Origin: Candidatus Endomicrobium embiratermitis
Lineage (GTDB): Bacteria; Elusimicrobiota; Endomicrobiia; Endomicrobiales; Endomicrobiaceae
DNA length: 36,801 nucleotides
Direction of reading: 5' to 3'
NCBI GenBank assembly: GCA_009781315.1
Contig: WQYI01000015.1
Location: 1 to 36,801 of the forward strand
A model generated the notes under the pieces. It saw nothing but the letters and a program-made list of their open reading frames with translations. It made no database searches and was not told the origin of the DNA. Of this stretch, positions 1 to 10,755 are shown piece after piece. Positions within the stretch are counted from its first letter, which is position 1; every line of letters starts with the position of its first letter. The translations under genes were made by a program, and so were the position numbers.

Positions 1-3000
1 CGTGCTGTTGCTTACCGTATTAGTTATATCAATAACTGAATTGTTGCTAAAATTATACGCAATGTTTCCGCCAAAAACCCGCGTCATAAAACTTACGTAT
101 GCATTATTGAAATTCACTGAATTCCCGGCTCCGCCGGTATTCGTAAAAGAACCGTTTAAAACATAATACGCATAATCTCCGGTACCTGAATTATAAAAAT
201 TTGCCTGCCCTCCGGTGCCGATAAAAGAAAAATTAGAACCGGACAATGTTGTTGTACCAAAATTCTGACTGTAATAATTTGATATTCCGTTATTTCCAAG
301 CCTTGCGTTATATCCCATGCTAGCCGCGCTTGCCGCGCCGTAAACTGTCAGCGTGCTGGAACTGATTGTATTTATTCCGGTAAACATTTTTCCGTATGCC
401 GTTACAGTCGTTGTTCCCGCTGTCTGCGTGAAACGTCCGCTGTAGCCGCTGTTATCTCCGTCCGTCAGAAAAAGACCGGCCCCGCTTTTTTCTATCAACC
501 CGGCTCCGGCTATTCCTCCGTCCATATATATGTATCCCGCGCCTGTTATACTCGTTGTTCCTCTAACTGTTTGATATATGTCCGCTCCGGCTGACCACGC
601 CGTATTGTTTACAAACGTTATGCTGCTTCCTAAGGATGTATTCAAGACTACGGATCCCTCGTTGTATATAGCTCCTCCGTAACCGCCCGTAGCATTGCCG
701 CTAAAAATTGCGTTTGTCACTATTACTTCTCCGGCGGTATTGCAAATCGCTCCGCCGGAACCTCCGGATCTCGAATTTTCTATTTTGACATTGCTGAAAT
801 TCGCCGTTGAATTAGTATTGTTAAGAAACAAGACAGATCCGCTGCCGTACGATCTCATAGCATTTTTTACGGTCAAATCTTGAACAGTAAGCGCTGTCAC
901 TGCCGATATATTAAACAAAGAGTTCCAGTTTGCGTCTATCACGCTGTCTGCCGCATTTGAATTCCTGCCCAAAACCCGGAAAACGCCGGCTGCCGTAGGG
1001 TATAGATCCTCAGCGACAATATAGTCTGCAATTGTCCCAGTCGAACCGTAAACCCCGAAATTGAAATCTCTGGTTCCGGCAAAGATGTTCTGCACGTTTA
1101 ACGAATAACCGTCGGTAAAACTATACGCCGTAAGAACAATGTCTGTTCCGGATACGCTTTCATAATAGGAATAAACCGTGGAATTCAACGTTTGCGACAA
1201 AGAGTCCGAGAAAGTCAGCCCGTTCAAAATCGTTGCGCGGCGCACGAGCTTTGTACCGTCGTCCGATGTGTTCAAAAGTGAAATATTGCCTATTCCTATG
1301 GTCGTGCCGCCCGCTAAGACCGTTAAAGTATCGGCGGCAAGTCCGTTCGCGCTTGCCGTCGAAAAAGCTATGCTGAATGACAACTTTGAGCCGTTCACCG
1401 TAGTCAAATTGGAAAACGTCGTAGATCTAATCGTCGTCGTGCTCAAATTAAGAGTCGTATTGTCCAGCCCGTAATTTCTCGCGTAATATGTCCCGTTAAG
1501 ACGCAAAGTCGAATCTCTGAAAATAACGCGGTTAAGGTTTACTTTCGTAAAGTTCGCATCGGCGTTCAACCGGTAATTCGCGCTCACTTTGTCGCCTGTA
1601 ACTTCATCGTAATCCGCGCCGAATATAACATCCGTCGCGTTGGAAAAAGTTATATTGAAAGGATTGCTAAAACCCGCGGTGACTTCATTTGAGGTACTGG
1701 CAAGATACGCCAAATTTCCCGTCGAAGAAAATGTACCTCTTGCCTTGGTAACAGTTGAGCTGGACGCATTCGCGAGGACTATTTGCATCTCTCCGCCCTG
1801 TATTCTAATGTTAGTGGCACTTGACGCGAACATCGTGCTTGACGTCGTGAATTTCGTCGCTCCGCCTGTTTGCGTAAAAATACCCGTAAAACCGCTAAGA
1901 GTCGAATTATTTCCGGCTAATATTAAAAGGTTATTGCCGCTTTTGTTAATAAAGTCGCTGGCATTATTGCCGGTTATCCCGCCGTTGAGGCGGATATAAC
2001 CGCTGTCGCCCTGTATAAGCATGCCGCCTTCAAAGATCGTTATGTCGCGCCCGCCGCTGGCATTCGAATTTCCGTAAAAAATCATGTTGCCGTTATTGAC
2101 GGTTGTCAATGTTAATCCGACGGTATTAGGGAAAGCATCGACGAAGATTCCGCCGGCTTTGTAGTTCTGGTTGGTTGCGCCAACCGCAGTGTTGCTGGCA
2201 AAGAGGACTGTACCGTTGTCCGCCGTTATAAAAACTTGTCCGTTACGACTATTAATCGCCCCTCCATAATTGCCGCTGCTGGCGTCGGTATTATTATCAA
2301 ACATAACTATACCGCCGTTAGACGCCTTTATATTGAGAATAGGCTGAGTTTGGCCGGCGGTATTATTGTTGGTATAGATGTATATTGCGCCGCCTCGGCC
2401 GTTTGTAGAATTGCTGGAGAACCTGACTAAAGAATCCTTGCCATCCGCAATAATGTTGATCCGTGCGTTTTCGTTGGCGCAAAGCGCGCCTCCGCCGGCG
2501 AGAGTCTGATTAGATGTTAATTGCGCCGTGTTGTTGAAGAATAAAATACTTCCGCCGTTCAAAGCGCTTATGTTGACCGTCGTCAAAGTTGCACTGTATA
2601 TCGCCCCTCCGCCTGTCCCTGCGGCCATGCTGTTGCCCGAATAACCGCGTGAGAATGACGCGCCGTTATTAATGTTCAATACCGTGTTAGCGCCGGAAAC
2701 GGTGACCAGCCCGCCGTTCGTGCGGAATGAGGCTGCGCCGGTACCGGACAGATTGATGTTTTGCAGAGTGTAGATTTGGCCGCCCTGAAAATTTAACCTG
2801 TTATTGGCGCCTGTGCCGAAAGTGATAGTATAAATTATACCGCCTTTGCCCTGTATCGTTGTCGAACTTGTCATGGAAGCAAAAGCAGTAGCGTTGGCGG
2901 TTGTAAAATCGGCAATGATATCAATAATAGACGCTGTGTTAATCGCTGCTTGAAGCATAGAAGTACTACTGACATCCACGGCGCAAACTTTCTGAGTAAA

Positions 3001-3057
3001 TCCTAACACAACCCCGCAAACCAATGCCAAAACAATACGCTTCTTTAAAAAAGTCAT
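1..3057 (-). CDS. Secreted Pmp-like beta-helix surface protein, 3' end outside window
   Basis: An open frame of 1019 codons runs from an ATG at 3057 to base 1 without a stop, so the C-terminus is missing. AGGAG lies about 8 nt before the ATG. Residues 1-26 look like a signal peptide (KKR, a hydrophobic core, then VCA). The rest is rich in N, G, S and T. It repeats motifs such as GGAIY and FxxN (FFNNTA, RFSSNS, MFDNNT, FSGNAT, FVNNTA), the hallmark pair of chlamydial polymorphic membrane protein repeats and of right-handed beta-helix adhesins. A module with GYI, a GGI stretch, KSG, FTQT and MF occurs twice (about residues 345-425 and 830-910). It is probably exported and cell-surface attached or autotransported; a C-terminal barrel cannot be judged here. 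Family placement rests on motifs only. Confidence 0.75.
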   Translation of the reverse strand, partial: MTFLKKRIVLALVCGVVLGFTQKVCAVDVSSTSMLQAAINTASIIDIIADFTTANATAFASMTSSTTIQGKGGIIYTITFGTGANNRLNFQGGQIYTLQNINLSGTGAASFRTNGGLVTVSGANTVLNINNGASFSRGYSGNSMAAGTGGGAIYSATLTTVNISALNGGSILFFNNTAQLTSNQTLAGGGALCANENARINIIADGKDSLVRFSSNSTNGRGGAIYIYTNNNTAGQTQPILNIKASNGGIVMFDNNTDASSGNYGGAINSRNGQVFITADNGTVLFASNTAVGATNQNYKAGGIFVDAFPNTVGLTLTTVNNGNMIFYGNSNASGGRDITIFEGGMLIQGDSGYIRLNGGITGNNASDFINKSGNNLLILAGNNSTLSGFTGIFTQTGGATKFTTSSTMFASSATNIRIQGGEMQIVLANASSSTVTKARGTFSSTGNLAYLASTSNEVTAGFSNPFNITFSNATDVIFGADYDEVTGDKVSANYRLNADANFTKVNLNRVIFRDSTLRLNGTYYARNYGLDNTTLNLSTTTIRSTTFSNLTTVNGSKLSFSIAFSTASANGLAADTLTVLAGGTTIGIGNISLLNTSDDGTKLVRRATILNGLTFSDSLSQTLNSTVYSYYESVSGTDIVLTAYSFTDGYSLNVQNIFAGTRDFNFGVYGSTGTIADYIVAEDLYPTAAGVFRVLGRNSNAADSVIDANWNSLFNISAVTALTVQDLTVKNAMRSYGSGSVLFLNNTNSTANFSNVKIENSRSGGSGGAICNTAGEVIVTNAIFSGNATGGYGGAIYNEGSVVLNTSLGSSITFVNNTAWSAGADIYQTVRGTTSITGAGYIYMDGGIAGAGLIEKSGAGLFLTDGDNSGYSGRFTQTAGTTTVTAYGKMFTGINTISSSTLTVYGAASAASMGYNARLGNNGISNYYSQNFGTTTLSGSNFSFIGTGGQANFYNSGTGDYAYYVLNGSFTNTGGAGNSVNFNNAYVSFMTRVFGGNIAYNFSNNSVIDITNTVSNST

Positions 3058-3126
3058 TTCTATACTCCTAAAAAATTGAAACATAAATTGTATGATTTTT
3101 TTTATTTTAATCGAACACATAATAAT

Positions 3127-3143: not shown

Positions 3144-4988
3144 TCAATTATCTATTTCCATCATTTTGATTTTGAAATGTTCGCTTTTATTTTCAAATTC
3201 TTCGGTGAGGCAGGCTAAGCTCTCATAAAGTTTTTCTAGTTCGGATTTAAGCTGTTTATCTATTCTCGGTCCTTCAGCCAAAAAAGCAATATCGAGATTT
3301 TGCGAAGCCCAAACAAGTTTTTCGGTATTTGCGCTTAAAAGATTTTCTTTTTCGGATATTTCTTTTTCGGTCTTTGAAATTTTTTCTTCAAGAGGCTTTA
3401 AAACCTTAGATTTTTCCTGTATAAGCCGCGCTCTTTGTTTTTTTATCTCGCCTCTGGATAAAACTTTATCTTTAGAGGCGCTTTTTGTTTTTATTTCATC
3501 GCTTTCGTCTTCCCAGCCTTTCGCGTTTAAAAAATCCTGATATGTTCCGTCAAACACGCCGACTTTGTCCCTGTCGAAAACTATCAGTTTTTCGGCAATA
3601 TTATGCAAGAGTTCCTCATTGTGCGTTACAAGTATGACCGAACCTTCAAACTCGTTTACAGCGTCTATCAGCCCTTCGCAGGATTCCATATCCAAATGGT
3701 TTGTCGGTTCGTCCAAAAGAAGCAGGTGGCATGGACGGACAAGAATTTTTCCCAAAAGCACGCGGCTTTTTTCGCCGCCGCTTAAAACTTCTATTTTCTT
3801 TAAAGCGTCGTCGCCGCTAAACATCATGTTTCCGGCAATGTTTCTTGCTCTCTGAGGAAGGCATTGGTTGTCCGAACTGATTATTTCTTCAAAAACCGTT
3901 TTATTCGGCGTGAGATTTGCCGCGTCGGACTGCACAAAATAAGAAATTTTTAAATCCGGATGCTTCTTTATGCTTCCCTCAACCGCGGTAAGCCGGTCCG
4001 CGAGTATTTTTAACAATGTCGATTTACCTTTGCCGTTTTTTCCGATAACGCATATTCTGTCTTTTTTCAAAACGTCGAAGTTAAGTTTATCTATCAAAAT
4101 ATTGTCTTTTGTGTAGCCGAAACCTAAATTGTGGACTCCCATCATTTTTGCGGCGTTAAAAGGAAGCGGCGAAAAAGAAAAATCCAAATCTTCTATAGCC
4201 GTAAGCTCCCGCATATCTTCCTGTTTTTCAAGGCATTTAATGCGAGACTGAACCATGCCCGCAAGCCTTGCTTTTGCCCTGAAACGCCTTATGAAAATTT
4301 CCGTTTGTTTTCGTTTTTTTTCGACGTTGAGACGGGTTTTTTCGTATATCTCTTCTTCTTTTTCTATCTGTTCGTATAATTTTTGGGTATTGCCTTCCAC
4401 TTTCCTGGCTTTTGTTCTGTGTATGGCCGAGCAATGCGTTATAACGCCGTCCATAAAATTTCTGTCATGGGTTATAAGCATTAATTCGCCTTTCCAGGAA
4501 CGCAAAAAACCGCTAAGCCAGCGTATAGCCACAATGTCCAAATAGTTATTCGGCTCGTCAAGCATAAGCATATCCGCGTCGGATAGCAAAACTTTGGCAA
4601 GATTTATTCTTATTTTATAACCGCCCGAGAATTCAAGAGGATTTTTTAACATATCGGATTGTGAAAAGCCGAGGCCGGAAAGAATTTTCTCGGCTTTCCA
4701 AGTTTCGTCTTTTTCAGCATGAGGCAAGGCAAGACAGGCTTCCTGCAGCACGGTAGGTTTGGTAAAACTTATATGCTGCCGCAAATAACCGACTTTGTAA
4801 TTTTTAGGTATGCTTACCAGACCCGAATCGTATTCTGTTTCGTTTAAAATAATTTTGAAAAGAGTGGTTTTGCCGTGCCCGTTTCTGCCGACAAGCCCCA
4901 CTTTTTCTTTTGCGTTTATATTTAAGTTCAGATTGTCAAAAAGTATCCTGCTTCCGAATGATTTGCATAAATCCGTGATTTTTATCAT
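3144..4988 (-). CDS. ABC-F family ATPase (ribosome-associated type)
   Basis: A 614-residue protein with two ABC ATPase domains and no membrane segments, the ABC-F layout. Domain 1 has Walker A GRNGHGKT (34-41), signature FSGGY (120-124), Walker B and LDEP (to 146), and the H-switch THD (173-175). A charged helical linker (about 200-260) follows, as in factors that reach the ribosomal tRNA sites. Domain 2 has GKNGKGKS (316-323), LSGGE (402-406), [11 protein letters not shown] (423-433) and THN (455-457). A Lys/Glu-rich coiled coil fills about 495-610, reminiscent of Uup/YheS. Known ABC-F proteins act in translation or antibiotic protection; the subfamily is not assignable by eye. The start ATG has no Shine-Dalgarno and sits 1-3 nt after a TATAAA-like box, so a leaderless mRNA is possible. 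Confidence 0.9.
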
Positions 4989-5043: not shown

Positions 5044-6024
5044 CTATTTTACGGTCTTATTGTCATATAAAAAAGATTTGGCCGGGGCATACCCTTGTTC
5101 TGCCGCGTGATGCATCCATTCTATAGCTTCCTGTCGGTCTTGTTTTACTCCTTTTCCTTCGTGATACATCAACCCGAGATTATACTGAGATTTTACATTA
5201 TCTTGTTCTGCCGCCTTCTTATACCACTTAAAAGCTTCCTGATAATTTTGATTTACGCCTTGCCCTTTATAATACATTAATCCGAGATTGTATTGAGCGC
5301 TTGCAAAGCCTTGGTCTGCCGATTTTTTCCACCATTTAAACGCTTCCTGAAAATTTTGCTTTACTCCGTTTCCTCCGGCATACATCGTTCCGAGAGTATT
5401 TTGAGCTTCGGCATCTCCCTTCTCTGCCAGCGTTCTTACTGCTATGGCGTCTAATATAGCTTGAGCCGGCGCATAACCTTGCTCCGCTAACGGCTTTACC
5501 CAGTTAGTAGCTTCCTGATAATCTTTTTTTACTCCGTTTCCTTCATAGTACATTAACCCAAGCCCATAGCGCGCCATATTACTTCCGGTCAGGTTATTCC
5601 CTTGCTCAGCTGCTTTTTTGAACCACTTGAAAGCTTCTTGATAATCTCTCTCTATCCCTTCTCCGCTATAGTACATCCATCCGGTATTATACTGCGCAAT
5701 TACAAGTCCCTGTTCCGCTGATTTTTTATACCACTTAAAAGCTTCTTGATAATCTCTCTCTATTCCTTCTCCGCTATAGTACATCCATCCGATTTGATAC
5801 TGGGCGTTTGCATTCTCTTGTCGCGCTGATTTTTTATACCATTTAAGAGCTTCTTGATAATTTGTCTCTATCCCTTCTCCGCTATAGTACATCCACCCAA
5901 GTCTATATTGGGCGTCTGAATTTCCTTGTTCTGCCAGTTTTTTCATTTCTTCAAAACTTTCTGAAAAAACCGCAGACGTGCAAAAAATTACCATAGTTAA
6001 AAACGCCAATAATACTTTTTTCAT
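5044..6024 (-). CDS. Secreted Sel1-like repeat protein
   Basis: The chosen start gives a signal peptide (MKK, then LLAFLTMVIFCTSAVFS) and has AGGA about 9 nt upstream. The open frame extends 25 codons further up (to 6099), but that extension reads through a duplicated piece of the ABC-F 5' end and is unlikely to be translated. The mature protein (about 305 residues) is built of Sel1/TPR-like repeats of about 36 residues. Each has the pattern AQYxLGxMYYxGxGV, then YQEAxKWYKKSAEQG; about seven are full and one is degenerate. Sel1 proteins are helical solenoids that bind partner proteins; here the location would be periplasmic or extracellular. The first three repeats are nearly identical even in DNA, suggesting recent repeat expansion. 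The partner is unknown. Confidence 0.85.
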   Translation of the reverse strand: MKKVLLAFLTMVIFCTSAVFSESFEEMKKLAEQGNSDAQYRLGWMYYSGEGIETNYQEALKWYKKSARQENANAQYQIGWMYYSGEGIERDYQEAFKWYKKSAEQGLVIAQYNTGWMYYSGEGIERDYQEAFKWFKKAAEQGNNLTGSNMARYGLGLMYYEGNGVKKDYQEATNWVKPLAEQGYAPAQAILDAIAVRTLAEKGDAEAQNTLGTMYAGGNGVKQNFQEAFKWWKKSADQGFASAQYNLGLMYYKGQGVNQNYQEAFKWYKKAAEQDNVKSQYNLGLMYHEGKGVKQDRQEAIEWMHHAAEQGYAPAKSFLYDNKTVK

Positions 6025-6028
6025 TAAA

Positions 6029-6093
6029 GCATCCTGATTCCGAACTATTTGCATCAACCGTAATTCTATCCTATTTATATTATAGCAAGAAAC
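6029..6093 (-). repeat. Duplicated segment, copy B (upstream of the Sel1 gene)
   Basis: Degenerate second copy of the ABC-F promoter and 5' coding sequence. It supplies the TATAAT at 6079-6084 and the CAGGATGCTTT that now serves as ribosome binding region of the Sel1 gene. The original ABC-F ATG reads AGG here and the frame is shifted, so it is a remnant, not a gene. Confidence 0.7.
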
Positions 6094-6107
6094 AGACATA
6101 ATTTCGA
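6079..6107 (-). promoter_or_regulatory. Promoter of the Sel1-repeat gene
   Basis: -10 TATAAT at 6079-6084 and a fair -35 TCGAAA at 6102-6107 with a 17-nt spacer, read on the minus strand. It is divergent from the FIST operon promoter. Confidence 0.5.
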
Positions 6108-6203: not shown

Positions 6204-7379
6204 GTGTTGAAATGTGCAAGTCTCTACACCTATGAAATTGATAATCCGGAAATCGCGCTTGAAGAAATCAAGACGCAGCTTAAGCAAAAAATAACCCTTC
6301 TTGAAAATTCTGCCGGAATCATAATGTGCAACCCCGAATTTATCAGTTCCGGAGTCGTAAAGCATATCAGCGAAAACCTGCCGTTTGATTTAGCCGGAGT
6401 AACGACGTCCTCGCAGGCTGTCAACAATGAAGCCGGCGAGCTTATGTTGACTATTTTTGTGATGACATCGGACGACGTATGGTTCAAAACAGGCGTAACG
6501 GAAAGCCTAAACGAAAGTATCGACGAACCGGTCAAAGCGGCTTTTGATAAGATTGCCGCCGGAGCATCCGAGATACCTAAACTTGCCATAATATTTCCTC
6601 CGCTGATTTTAAAACACGCGGGGGATGCGTATATAAACGCATGGAAACAACTTATCCCCGACGTACCGGTTTTCGGAACAATTACTATAGACGATACCCT
6701 TACTTTTGAAGGAAGCAAAACCATATACAACGGTAAAAGTTATAAAACCTCAATGCCCTTTGTACTTTGTTACGGCAATATACACCCCCGTTTTATCGTT
6801 GGAACCCTTCCTCAGGACAAGGTTATGCCGTATAAAGGAGAGATCACAAAATCATGCGGGCCTTTTGTTAAGGAAATCAATAACATTAACGCGTATAAAT
6901 ATTTTGAGAGCATCGGATTTTCAAGCAACGGCGCCCTCGGAGAAAAATTTTTATTCGTGCCGTTTGTTATAGACCAGAAAAAACGCGAGGACTATGACGG
7001 TATACCCGTCATACGCGGACACGCTTCCTTTACCGAGGACGGAACGGCGATTTTCCGAGGCAACGTTGACGAAGGATCAACCTTTACTTTATTAACAAGC
7101 GATTCGGAAGACGTATTATCTACGACGCGGCAAAAAATCAGGCAGATAAACGAACTGCCGGATATAAACGGCGTCTTAATGTTTCCATGCATTGTCCGCC
7201 GCTTTATGACACAGCGCTTGAATCCCCTGATAGAACTGGAAACCGTCAGGGATACAATAAACCCCGAAATTCCCTTTATGATGGGATACTCGGGCGGCGA
7301 AATATGCCCGACATCGGTTAAAAATTGCATACCGACCAACCGGTTCCATAACTATTCGCTGGTTATTCTTGTTGTCTAA
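6204..7379 (+). CDS. FIST-domain sensor protein 1
   Basis: A 391-residue soluble protein with FIST_N in the first half and FIST_C in the second; no signal peptide or membrane segment. Typical features are the N-terminal segment with GVTTSSQAV and ELMLTIFVM, and the C-terminal PFMMGYSGGEICPTS followed by NRFHNYSLV. FIST domains are regarded as small-ligand sensory modules of signal transduction systems; the ligand is not known. The start is GTG, set by GGGAGG 6 nt upstream and by alignment with the next gene, which begins with the same MLKCASLYT. It is the first gene of a three-gene operon with a paralogue and a hybrid histidine kinase, so it probably feeds that kinase. Confidence 0.85.
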   Translation: MLKCASLYTYEIDNPEIALEEIKTQLKQKITLLENSAGIIMCNPEFISSGVVKHISENLPFDLAGVTTSSQAVNNEAGELMLTIFVMTSDDVWFKTGVTESLNESIDEPVKAAFDKIAAGASEIPKLAIIFPPLILKHAGDAYINAWKQLIPDVPVFGTITIDDTLTFEGSKTIYNGKSYKTSMPFVLCYGNIHPRFIVGTLPQDKVMPYKGEITKSCGPFVKEINNINAYKYFESIGFSSNGALGEKFLFVPFVIDQKKREDYDGIPVIRGHASFTEDGTAIFRGNVDEGSTFTLLTSDSEDVLSTTRQKIRQINELPDINGVLMFPCIVRRFMTQRLNPLIELETVRDTINPEIPFMMGYSGGEICPTSVKNCIPTNRFHNYSLVILVV

Positions 7380-7408
7380 AAAATATTAAAGGAAATGGGG
7401 GCGTTATT

Positions 7409-8566
7409 ATGTTAAAATGTGCGAGTCTTTATACCACTGAAGTTGACAATCCGGAAATTGCCGTAAGTAAAATAAATGAACAGATTGATGCTAAAATTAC
7501 CCTGCTTGAAAACTCGGTCGGAATCATTATGTGTCACCCTGAGTTTATCTCTACCGGCGTTCTCAAAGCCGTTTGCGAAAATCTACCGTTTGATGTAGCG
7601 GGAATAACAACCTCGTCGCAGGCGGTCAACAGTGAAATCGGCGAGCTTATGTTGACTATTTTTGTGATGACCTCGGACGACGTCCGGTTTAAAACAGGCT
7701 TAACGGAAAACCTGGATTGTGAAGTCGACGGACCGATTAAGTCCGCTTATAAACGAATTGCCGCTGATATGTCCGAACCGCCTAAGCTCGCCATCATATT
7801 TCCTCCGCTCGGGCTACACTCGGGCGACATGTACGTAGATGCATGGGGCAAAATTATTCCTCACATTCCTATTTTCGGAACATGCGCGATAGATGATACG
7901 ACTGTTTTTTCGGAATGCGAGACCATACACAACGGCACAAATTATAAATCCGCAATGCCGTTTGTACTTTGTTACGGAAATATTAACCCGCGCTTTATGA
8001 TAGCGACTCCTTCCGAAAAAAATACCGTGTCCGACAAAGCCGAGATCACAAAAGCGGCGGGCAATTGCGTTGAGCAAATCAATAACGATACCGCGATTAA
8101 ATACTTTGAAAAATTGGGTTTTACCGAAAGCGTTAAATTTACCCCGTTTATGATAGACTTACTAAAACGTGAAGATTATGACGGCATACCGGTAATACGC
8201 TGGCACGCTTATTTTACGGAAGAAGGAGAGTCGATTTTTTATGGGGATGTCGACGAGGGTTCAACTTTTACCATGTTGAAATGCGATCCCGACGATATAT
8301 TGGTAACAGCGCGCCAAAAATTAGAGATGCTTAACAAACTGCCCGATGTAAACGGCGTACTTTTATTTACCTGTACCGTTCGCCGCGCAACGCTTTCAGG
8401 CGTTAATAAACATTTAATGGAACTCCAAAGCGCGAAAAACATGATAAACTCCGAAATTCCCTTTATGATGGGATACTCTGGCGGTGAAATCTGTCCGACA
8501 TCGGTCAAAAACGACGTTCCGACTAACAGGTTTCACAACTATTCGCTGGTTATACTTGTTATATGA
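7409..8566 (+). CDS. FIST-domain sensor protein 2 (paralogue)
   Basis: 385 residues, homologous to the preceding gene over its whole length. Identical blocks include ELMLTIFVMTSDDV, KREDYDGIPVIR and a long C-terminal block with MMGYSGGEICPTS. The start ATG follows a GGGG-type ribosome site 29 nt after the upstream stop, so the pair is co-transcribed and arose by tandem duplication. Differences are concentrated in the middle, for example a shorter segment near the site where copy 1 has SSNGALGEKF. Two copies may sense different ligands or form a heteromer; that is inference. Cytoplasmic by absence of signals. Confidence 0.85.
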   Translation: MLKCASLYTTEVDNPEIAVSKINEQIDAKITLLENSVGIIMCHPEFISTGVLKAVCENLPFDVAGITTSSQAVNSEIGELMLTIFVMTSDDVRFKTGLTENLDCEVDGPIKSAYKRIAADMSEPPKLAIIFPPLGLHSGDMYVDAWGKIIPHIPIFGTCAIDDTTVFSECETIHNGTNYKSAMPFVLCYGNINPRFMIATPSEKNTVSDKAEITKAAGNCVEQINNDTAIKYFEKLGFTESVKFTPFMIDLLKREDYDGIPVIRWHAYFTEEGESIFYGDVDEGSTFTMLKCDPDDILVTARQKLEMLNKLPDVNGVLLFTCTVRRATLSGVNKHLMELQSAKNMINSEIPFMMGYSGGEICPTSVKNDVPTNRFHNYSLVILVI

Positions 8567-8601
8567 TATGTTATTAATTTAAGAACAACGGAGGCGAAAT
8601 A

Positions 8602-10755
8602 TTGGATAACAATCGCGAATACATAACCATCTCAAAAGACGAATACAACGAGCTGCTGCAAAAGATAAAAAATGCCGAAATTGAAAAAAACAAATCCGCG
8701 CGCGAATTCAGAACTATTATAAAGCGTAATGAGATTGACAAGCTAAACATTGAAACGCAAATCGGGATTAACAGAATAGTAACGGATGAAAAGCTAAAGC
8801 AGGAAATGTATGTCCGTCTGCTTTTGGAATCATACCCGAATCCCATGTTTATATTTGACGAAAATACAAAGTTTCTGCTAGGAACAAAATCAACCGCAGA
8901 ATTAATAGGCATCGATGATATTTCTATTTTACAAGGAAGAGAGCTCAACGGTATTATCGAAAGATACCGCCCGCCCGTATTTACTGAAGAAATAACCGCA
9001 TTAATTAAGACTATTATTTCCGGCCGCGGTCATGCAATCGCAGTGAAAAATCTTGAAATTTCAACCGAAGGCAAAAGATACGAGGTCACCGTCCTGCCGT
9101 TTCACAAAGAAAACGGAAATTTTGCCGGCATCCTTGTAATCATGCACGACATAACAGAGATAGCGAAGTCAAAAGAAATCGCGGAACAGGCAAGCAGCGC
9201 AAAAGGAGAATTTCTTTCCCGCATGAGCCACGAAATACGTACTCCGTTAAACGCCATCATCGGCATGATAAGTATCGGAATTGCAGCGAAAGATGCCGAC
9301 AAAAAAAATTATTGTTTCATAAAAGCGGACAGCGCGTCCAAGTACTTGCTCGGACTTATAAACGACATCCTTGACATGTCCAAGATCGAAGCTAACAAGT
9401 TTGAGTTGTCTTACAAAGAATTTAATTTTGAACAAGCGTTAAAGAATGTAACTAACATGGCAAATGTCCGCGCCGAAGAAAAACATCAGAATTTTATAGT
9501 TAATCTCAGCGAGAGCATTCCCGCAAACATATTGGGCGACGAATTGAGATTATCACAGATAATTACAAACCTTCTGACAAACGCGATAAAATTTACGCCG
9601 GCAAAAGGCACGATTATATTAAATGTTGAAAATATTGAAGAAATAAACGACGACATTATTCTTAAAATTGAAGTCTCGGACACAGGCATCGGCATTTCAA
9701 AAGAACAGCAGGAAAAGCTTTTTAAGTCTTTCAACCAGGCCGATTCAAGCATTTCCCAGAAATTCGGAGGAACCGGACTCGGCCTTGCCATTTCCAAACG
9801 AGTAGTAGAGTTAATGGGCGGCAAAATATGGATTGAGTCGGAACTCGGTAAAGGCGCAAAATTTATATTTACGATAAAAGTGAAAAAAGCCAAAGGGAAA
9901 AGCTATACAAAACTGTTTGAAAAAATAAACAGAGATAAAATACGCATCCTCGCGGTAGACGATTCGGAAGATATCAGGAATTATTTTACGCATATTATGG
10001 GAACGTTCAGGCTGTCATGCGACGTGGCGGCCGGCGGACTGCAGGCTATCGATATGATTAAAAACGCCGCGGACAAACCGTACAACATATTTTTTGTCGA
10101 CTGGCAAATGCCGGATATGAACGGAATCGAACTTACAAAAAAAATAAATGAACTCTGCAACGAAAACTCGATTGTAATTATTATTTCGGCGCACGACTGG
10201 AATACCATTGAAAAAGAGGCCATCGAGGCCGGCGTCAAACATTTTATATCAAAGCCTTTGTTCCCTTCGACGCTGATCAATGCCATCAACATTTGCATGG
10301 AAACGGAAATAACTGAATCCGCATACGGCGCGCAACGCGAGGATACGGCCAAGCGCAGCTACGATTTCAGCAATCGCACATTACTGATCGCGGAGGATGT
10401 TGAAATAAACAGGGAAATCTTGTCGGAAATTCTAAAAGAAACCGGCATTTCTATCGACTATGCGGAAAATGGAAAAACAGCGGTTTCCATGTTCGGCGAG
10501 AATCCCGAAAAATATGATCTTATTTTAATGGACATCAATATGCCTGAGATGGACGGCTATGAAGCGACGCAGAAAATACGTTCCCTTGATTTTAAAAAAG
10601 CGAAAGACATTCCTATAATTGCGATGACGGCAAATGTCTTTAAAGAAGATATTGAAAAATGCCTGGCGGCCGGAATGAACGACCATACGGGAAAGCCGAT
10701 TGACGCGAACGCTTTGTTCGAACTATTGAATAAATACTTATTAACTTTGTGCTGA
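8602..10755 (+). CDS. Hybrid sensor histidine kinase with PAS and two receiver domains
   Basis: 717 residues, no membrane segments. Order: coiled coil (about 10-70), PAS-like domain (about 70-190), HisKA with phospho-acceptor His210 in SHEIRTPLN, HATPase_c with N box NLLTNAIKFT (323-332), G1 DTGIGI (360-365) and G2 GGTGLGLAI (389-397). Receiver 1 (about 447-570) has Asp500 in FVDWQMPDM and Lys551; receiver 2 (about 592-715) has Asp644 in LMDINMPEMDG, Thr677 and Lys698. No HPt domain or output domain is present, so a separate phosphotransfer protein is expected, or the receivers work by interaction. The start is TTG, chosen because GGAGG lies 7 nt upstream and the next ATG is at codon 69. The gap to the FIST gene is 35 nt; the kinase is soluble and likely takes its input from the FIST proteins. 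Confidence 0.92.
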   Translation: MDNNREYITISKDEYNELLQKIKNAEIEKNKSAREFRTIIKRNEIDKLNIETQIGINRIVTDEKLKQEMYVRLLLESYPNPMFIFDENTKFLLGTKSTAELIGIDDISILQGRELNGIIERYRPPVFTEEITALIKTIISGRGHAIAVKNLEISTEGKRYEVTVLPFHKENGNFAGILVIMHDITEIAKSKEIAEQASSAKGEFLSRMSHEIRTPLNAIIGMISIGIAAKDADKKNYCFIKADSASKYLLGLINDILDMSKIEANKFELSYKEFNFEQALKNVTNMANVRAEEKHQNFIVNLSESIPANILGDELRLSQIITNLLTNAIKFTPAKGTIILNVENIEEINDDIILKIEVSDTGIGISKEQQEKLFKSFNQADSSISQKFGGTGLGLAISKRVVELMGGKIWIESELGKGAKFIFTIKVKKAKGKSYTKLFEKINRDKIRILAVDDSEDIRNYFTHIMGTFRLSCDVAAGGLQAIDMIKNAADKPYNIFFVDWQMPDMNGIELTKKINELCNENSIVIIISAHDWNTIEKEAIEAGVKHFISKPLFPSTLINAINICMETEITESAYGAQREDTAKRSYDFSNRTLLIAEDVEINREILSEILKETGISIDYAENGKTAVSMFGENPEKYDLILMDINMPEMDGYEATQKIRSLDFKKAKDIPIIAMTANVFKEDIEKCLAAGMNDHTGKPIDANALFELLNKYLLTLC

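Follow-up and report, generated by a model that had tools for sequence, protein, structure and literature searches.

The gene that runs off the first base of the window (the whole 36,801-nucleotide stretch of DNA analysed here, which is the entire contig C15, one of the 25 contigs of a 1.90-Mb Endomicrobium (Elusimicrobiota) genome) probably encodes the N-terminal passenger part of a type Va (monomeric) autotransporter, an adhesin with Pmp-like repeats and roughly a dozen or more paralogues. In the open reading frame analysis of the window, the frame extends from 3120 to 1 on the minus strand and is stop-free to base 1, where, as the earlier note says, it runs off the window; it breaks off because contig C15 ends there and not because the window was cut. 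ATG 3057 is a better start than ATG 3120, with a ribosome-binding-site-like AGGAG (3065..3069, minus strand) 7 bases before it, and so the coordinates 1-3057 proposed earlier match the best start and delimit the 5' part of a large surface-protein gene (1..3057, minus strand) of 1019 codons with no stop. The N-terminus reads by eye as a predicted Sec signal peptide, MTFLKKRIVLALVCGVVLGFTQKVCA (2980..3057, minus strand), followed by residues VD, in agreement with the same note.

Composition shuffling predicts 0.30 GGA[ILV] motifs in these 1019 residues; 6 are present, a count that none of 20,000 shuffles reached, and FxxN occurs 11 times against 6.4 expected, a weak excess when taken alone (903 of 20,000 shuffles reach it). 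Each GG[AIG]x motif is followed by an FxxN 17-39 residues downstream, and a similar alternation of motifs was described for the coils of the Pmp beta-helix (PMC11166332). The GGA[ILV] enrichment and the regular FxxN spacing bear out the repeats noticed earlier, which form two blocks on the minus strand, the first spanning residues 150-330 (2068..2610; defined by motif spacing and weak, sub-threshold Chlam_PMP matches) and the second residues 744-830 (568..828; motif spacing). The duplicated module of about 80 residues that had been described is also real, as two copies of the element GYI..GGI..KSG..FTQT..MF, about 60-80 residues each, are found at 1828..2010 and 382..540 of the minus strand. 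This element is the head of a larger module of about 295 residues, which is complete in paralogues, where it occurs once or several times. The window frame carries a diverged first copy of this larger module (1147..2001, minus strand; 22.5 bits with a module HMM, E 1.1e-6) and a partial second copy cut by the contig end (1..537, minus strand), which is 56-58% identical to paralogues and scores 282 bits with the module HMM, although this very copy had been part of the training set.

It is through these shared modules that the window frame, itself below the repeat cut-offs, is tied to its family. The genome holds 66 PF02415 repeats above cut-off, which lie in many of the long frames that also have barrels, and 12 PF03797 autotransporter barrels, all above cut-off, with E-values down to 1e-39. 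The closest local paralogue, of 2705 amino acids, is 56-58% identical to the last ~290 residues of the window frame and ends in a C-terminal PF03797 barrel, and for this reason the window frame is most likely a type Va passenger. A frame in another genome of the same genus is 38% identical to it over ~800 residues and is likewise cut by a contig end. Together with the barrels of the same-genome relatives, these findings support the earlier proposal that a non-chlamydial bacterium makes a giant surface protein which is secreted and resembles Pmps. The recombination hot spot proposed in the same place finds only indirect support, in modules common to the paralogues, in a stretch of at least 30 bases whose DNA is identical in the window gene and one paralogue, and in several contigs that break inside such genes.

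We infer the barrel on the window gene, the beta-helix, the surface location and the adhesion from this kinship. The protein would be exported by Sec, its C-terminal 12-strand barrel would be inserted by BamA, and the passenger would then pass to the cell surface and fold into a long beta-helix, which may attach the cell to gut surfaces, to particles, to flagellates or to other bacteria. An Omp85/BamA-type protein is encoded in the genome (PF01103, E 3.8e-65).

The profile searches suggested in the earlier note gave a divided outcome, with repeats and PF03797 barrels recovered in the paralogues, and Chlam_PMP (PF02415) remaining below cut-off in the window frame itself (14.0 bits against 20.6). 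TIGR01376 (POMP_repeat) reached 14.3 in the window frame against a cut-off of 15 and exceeded that cut-off in many paralogues, and PF12951 (PATR) gave no match in the window frame and three sub-threshold matches in one paralogue only. LepB_N and similar weak Pfam matches were dismissed as chance. No solved structure matched the window protein by sequence. The fold modelling that had also been suggested did not confirm a beta-helix, as AlphaFold modelled the window protein with a mean pLDDT of 38; since both models made were poor (mean pLDDT 38 and 34), no fold search was performed. Beta-helical folds are common among carbohydrate-active proteins and the termite gut is a polysaccharide-rich habitat, so that the passenger might instead be a secreted enzyme or a structural layer protein carried on an autotransporter, for example one that binds or cleaves polysaccharides, and no adhesin. 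We consider this unlikely, given that neither the window frame nor the scanned passengers contained a Pfam or NCBIfam enzyme domain and that the paralogues reach 8163 amino acids, a length unusual for enzymes.

The pair of GGAI and FxxN motifs had been called diagnostic of chlamydial Pmps, which it is not. PF02415 is widespread outside Chlamydiae (PMC10715098, PMC11166332), being present in over 100 non-chlamydial species (PMC10715098), and Chlamydia holds only 443 of 1448 PF02415 proteins (PMC11166332); the occurrence of the GGA[ILV]/FxxN pair outside Chlamydiae is thus already published (PMC10715098, PMC11166332). Like chlamydial Pmps (PF02415, PF07548 and PF03797), the proteins studied here combine a signal peptide with GGA[ILV]/FxxN repeats and belong to a large paralogous family with an autotransporter barrel, here seen in the paralogues. 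They differ in that the window-frame repeats score below cut-off, that the relatives are often much longer (about 1000-8000 amino acids), that in many of these the barrel is followed by an OmpA domain, and that the organisms carrying them include a free-living isolate. PF07548, the Pmp middle domain, gave no match in 41 genomes or in the C-terminal halves of the paralogues, in a search run without a positive control and with the window gene incomplete. A true chlamydial Pmp homologue, gained through horizontal transfer and used to invade host cells, would account for the motifs, for the TIGR01376/PF02415 matches of the paralogues and for their C-terminal barrels, but we regard it as highly improbable, as the repeat of the window frame stays under the cut-off, the middle domain was not found, the reduced genus, which matches the intracellular one, has almost none of the repeats, and the motif pair occurs in many lineages, archaea and a eukaryote included (PMC10715098). 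Judged by its sequence, the window protein is no chlamydial Pmp.

Across 60 genomes of relatives, autotransporter barrels were often met with in the same family and hardly ever in the other families of the phylum sample. PF02415 repeats had a median of 10 in the 35 family genomes outside one genus (g8), compared to a median of 0 in the 25 genomes of g8, which are non-independent owing to their shared ancestry. Genomes of g8 measure 0.5-1.4 Mb, with 30-36% GC in the sampled stretches, and Endomicrobiellum, an endosymbiont genus, averages 1.13 Mb and 32% GC (PMC11257099), so g8 is likely to be this reduced-genome endosymbiont. Family members with larger genomes commonly carry the repeats and g8 almost lacks them, the pattern to be expected if they serve contact with the surroundings, and this near absence from a reduced genus lends itself to testing the function of such proteins. 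The main text of the family's main genome study (PMC11257099) contains no autotransporter, adhesin or Pmp terms.

Turning to the barrels, in four frames of this genome (at 376 kb of C1 and on C3, C6 and C21; the C6 frame is 5'-open) the barrel is followed by an OmpA domain, and the end of C21 holds a cut fragment of 152 amino acids with an OmpA domain following a charged linker. In a single-contig genome of the same genus (1,588,979 bases), the OmpA domain is fused in seven of the barrel frames fetched, and two giants of 7051 and 8163 amino acids are each followed, about a dozen bases past the barrel stop, by a separate gene encoding a signal peptide and OmpA. The two giants stem from a recent duplication, and their separate OmpA genes represent the fusion in split form. 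This genome also contains a passenger gene followed by a shorter protein comprising a signal peptide, a barrel and OmpA, with no passenger, and in the single-contig genome the start of a passenger-less barrel gene lies at the same place. When the best barrel per locus was taken from 29 loci of the family, about half carried an OmpA domain, in several genera, and some of these OmpA-tailed barrels had passengers with no GGA motifs in the stretch seen. Passengers had a median length of 2510 residues with an OmpA tail and 1032 without, a trend only (p 0.07-0.09). An Asp and an Arg 15 residues apart (GHTD...LSxxRA) are invariant in all four fused OmpA domains aligned, and we take them to be the diaminopimelate-binding pair known from Acinetobacter OmpA; going by these residues, the fused domain may grip peptidoglycan. 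As separate observations, the 3' ends of the two giants (L160 and L165, at about 348 kb and 793 kb) are near-identical, and the arrangement of a passenger gene overlapping a passenger-less barrel gene (L053:2410-9265, with OmpA, and L158:2940-9999) is kept in two species.

The less familiar part of this system looks to be the fusion of an OmpA anchor to a type Va barrel, seen across an entire bacterial family. The window family shares with type Va autotransporters (PF03797) the barrel family, the Sec signal, the repeat passenger and a BamA-type protein in the genome. Classical type Va autotransporters, however, end at the barrel, whereas in this family roughly one in two of the best barrels sampled continues into an OmpA domain. 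Like the AtaA-TpgA pair, their closest parallel among characterised systems, these proteins link an outer-membrane adhesin anchor to an OmpA-type peptidoglycan-binding module, and the split barrel/OmpA version in the single-contig genome adds to the likeness; NF047726 (TpgA) matches the fused OmpA domain at 9e-10, which is below its cut-off. Unlike that pair, in which AtaA is trimeric (type Vc) and TpgA separate, the barrel here belongs to the type Va family and OmpA is usually fused to it. The inverse autotransporters of the YeeJ and intimin type (type Ve) similarly combine an autotransporter with a periplasmic peptidoglycan-binding domain, but theirs is an N-terminal LysM and the one here a C-terminal OmpA. 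By computation, the periplasmic peptidoglycan-binding partner in AtaA-TpgA raises the force needed for extraction about twofold (PMC13082670), and if the barrel-OmpA fusion does bind peptidoglycan, it would be a simple way to hold very long fibres in the outer membrane. An alignment search of genome contigs for the barrel-OmpA combination returned only two loci, both in Endomicrobia metagenome bins, and we found no description of the fusion in the literature, which is weak evidence of its novelty.

We then considered where the missing 3' end of the window gene may lie. The extension to the stop codon called for earlier failed, as the first bases of the window share fewer than 20 bases with any contig end compared. 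Frames at the contig ends are 3'-open on C9, C14 and C15 and 5'-open on C1, C6 and at the end of C21. C14 and C1 overlap by 49 bases, and C9 and C6 form the better pair because a C9 module matches the first part of C6 at 70% identity; with these paired, only the 152-residue fragment of C21 has no partner. By this elimination, the C21 OmpA fragment would belong to the window gene, with the remainder of the passenger and the barrel in an unassembled gap. Our tentative proposal, to which we give somewhat less than an even chance, is that the window gene would be one of a family of monomeric autotransporters that anchor themselves, in which a giant external Pmp-like fibre, an outer-membrane barrel and a fused, peptidoglycan-gripping OmpA form a one-chain counterpart of AtaA-TpgA, and that its 3' end would be the C21 fragment. 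The gene beside that fragment had no autotransporter neighbour in the relatives examined.

With the contig ending inside the gene and several other contigs ending within similar genes, the frame could also be a fragment, either chimeric or in decay, that arose as an artefact of assembling a repeat-rich contig end. The chance of this appears very small, as the frame keeps 1019 stop-free codons, a ribosome-binding site and a signal peptide, a long relative exists in another genome, and giants are present in the single-contig genome of the same genus. The passenger of a type Va autotransporter thus remains our preferred reading of the frame. Elsewhere in the assembly, an identical 100-base stretch within large repetitive frames was seen at the ends of C9, C18 and C20, and probably represents a further family of repeats at which the assembly breaks. 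On contig C23 (L080), an Omp85-family protein adjoins a frame that resembles a two-partner secretion exoprotein and is truncated where the contig begins, and the starts of C4 and C14 hold repetitive frames similar to it.

Directly upstream of the window gene lies a gene for an ABC-F-type ATPase (3144..4988, minus strand), conserved in the family. The site downstream of this ABC-F gene is a variable one: among four relatives (L172, L173, L174 and L175), one has a different Pmp-like gene there and three have none. Further along the window, inspection by eye pointed to a Sel1-like repeat protein with a signal-like segment (5044-6099) and, at 6204-10755, to two tandem, similar FIST-domain sensor-like genes followed by a hybrid histidine kinase.
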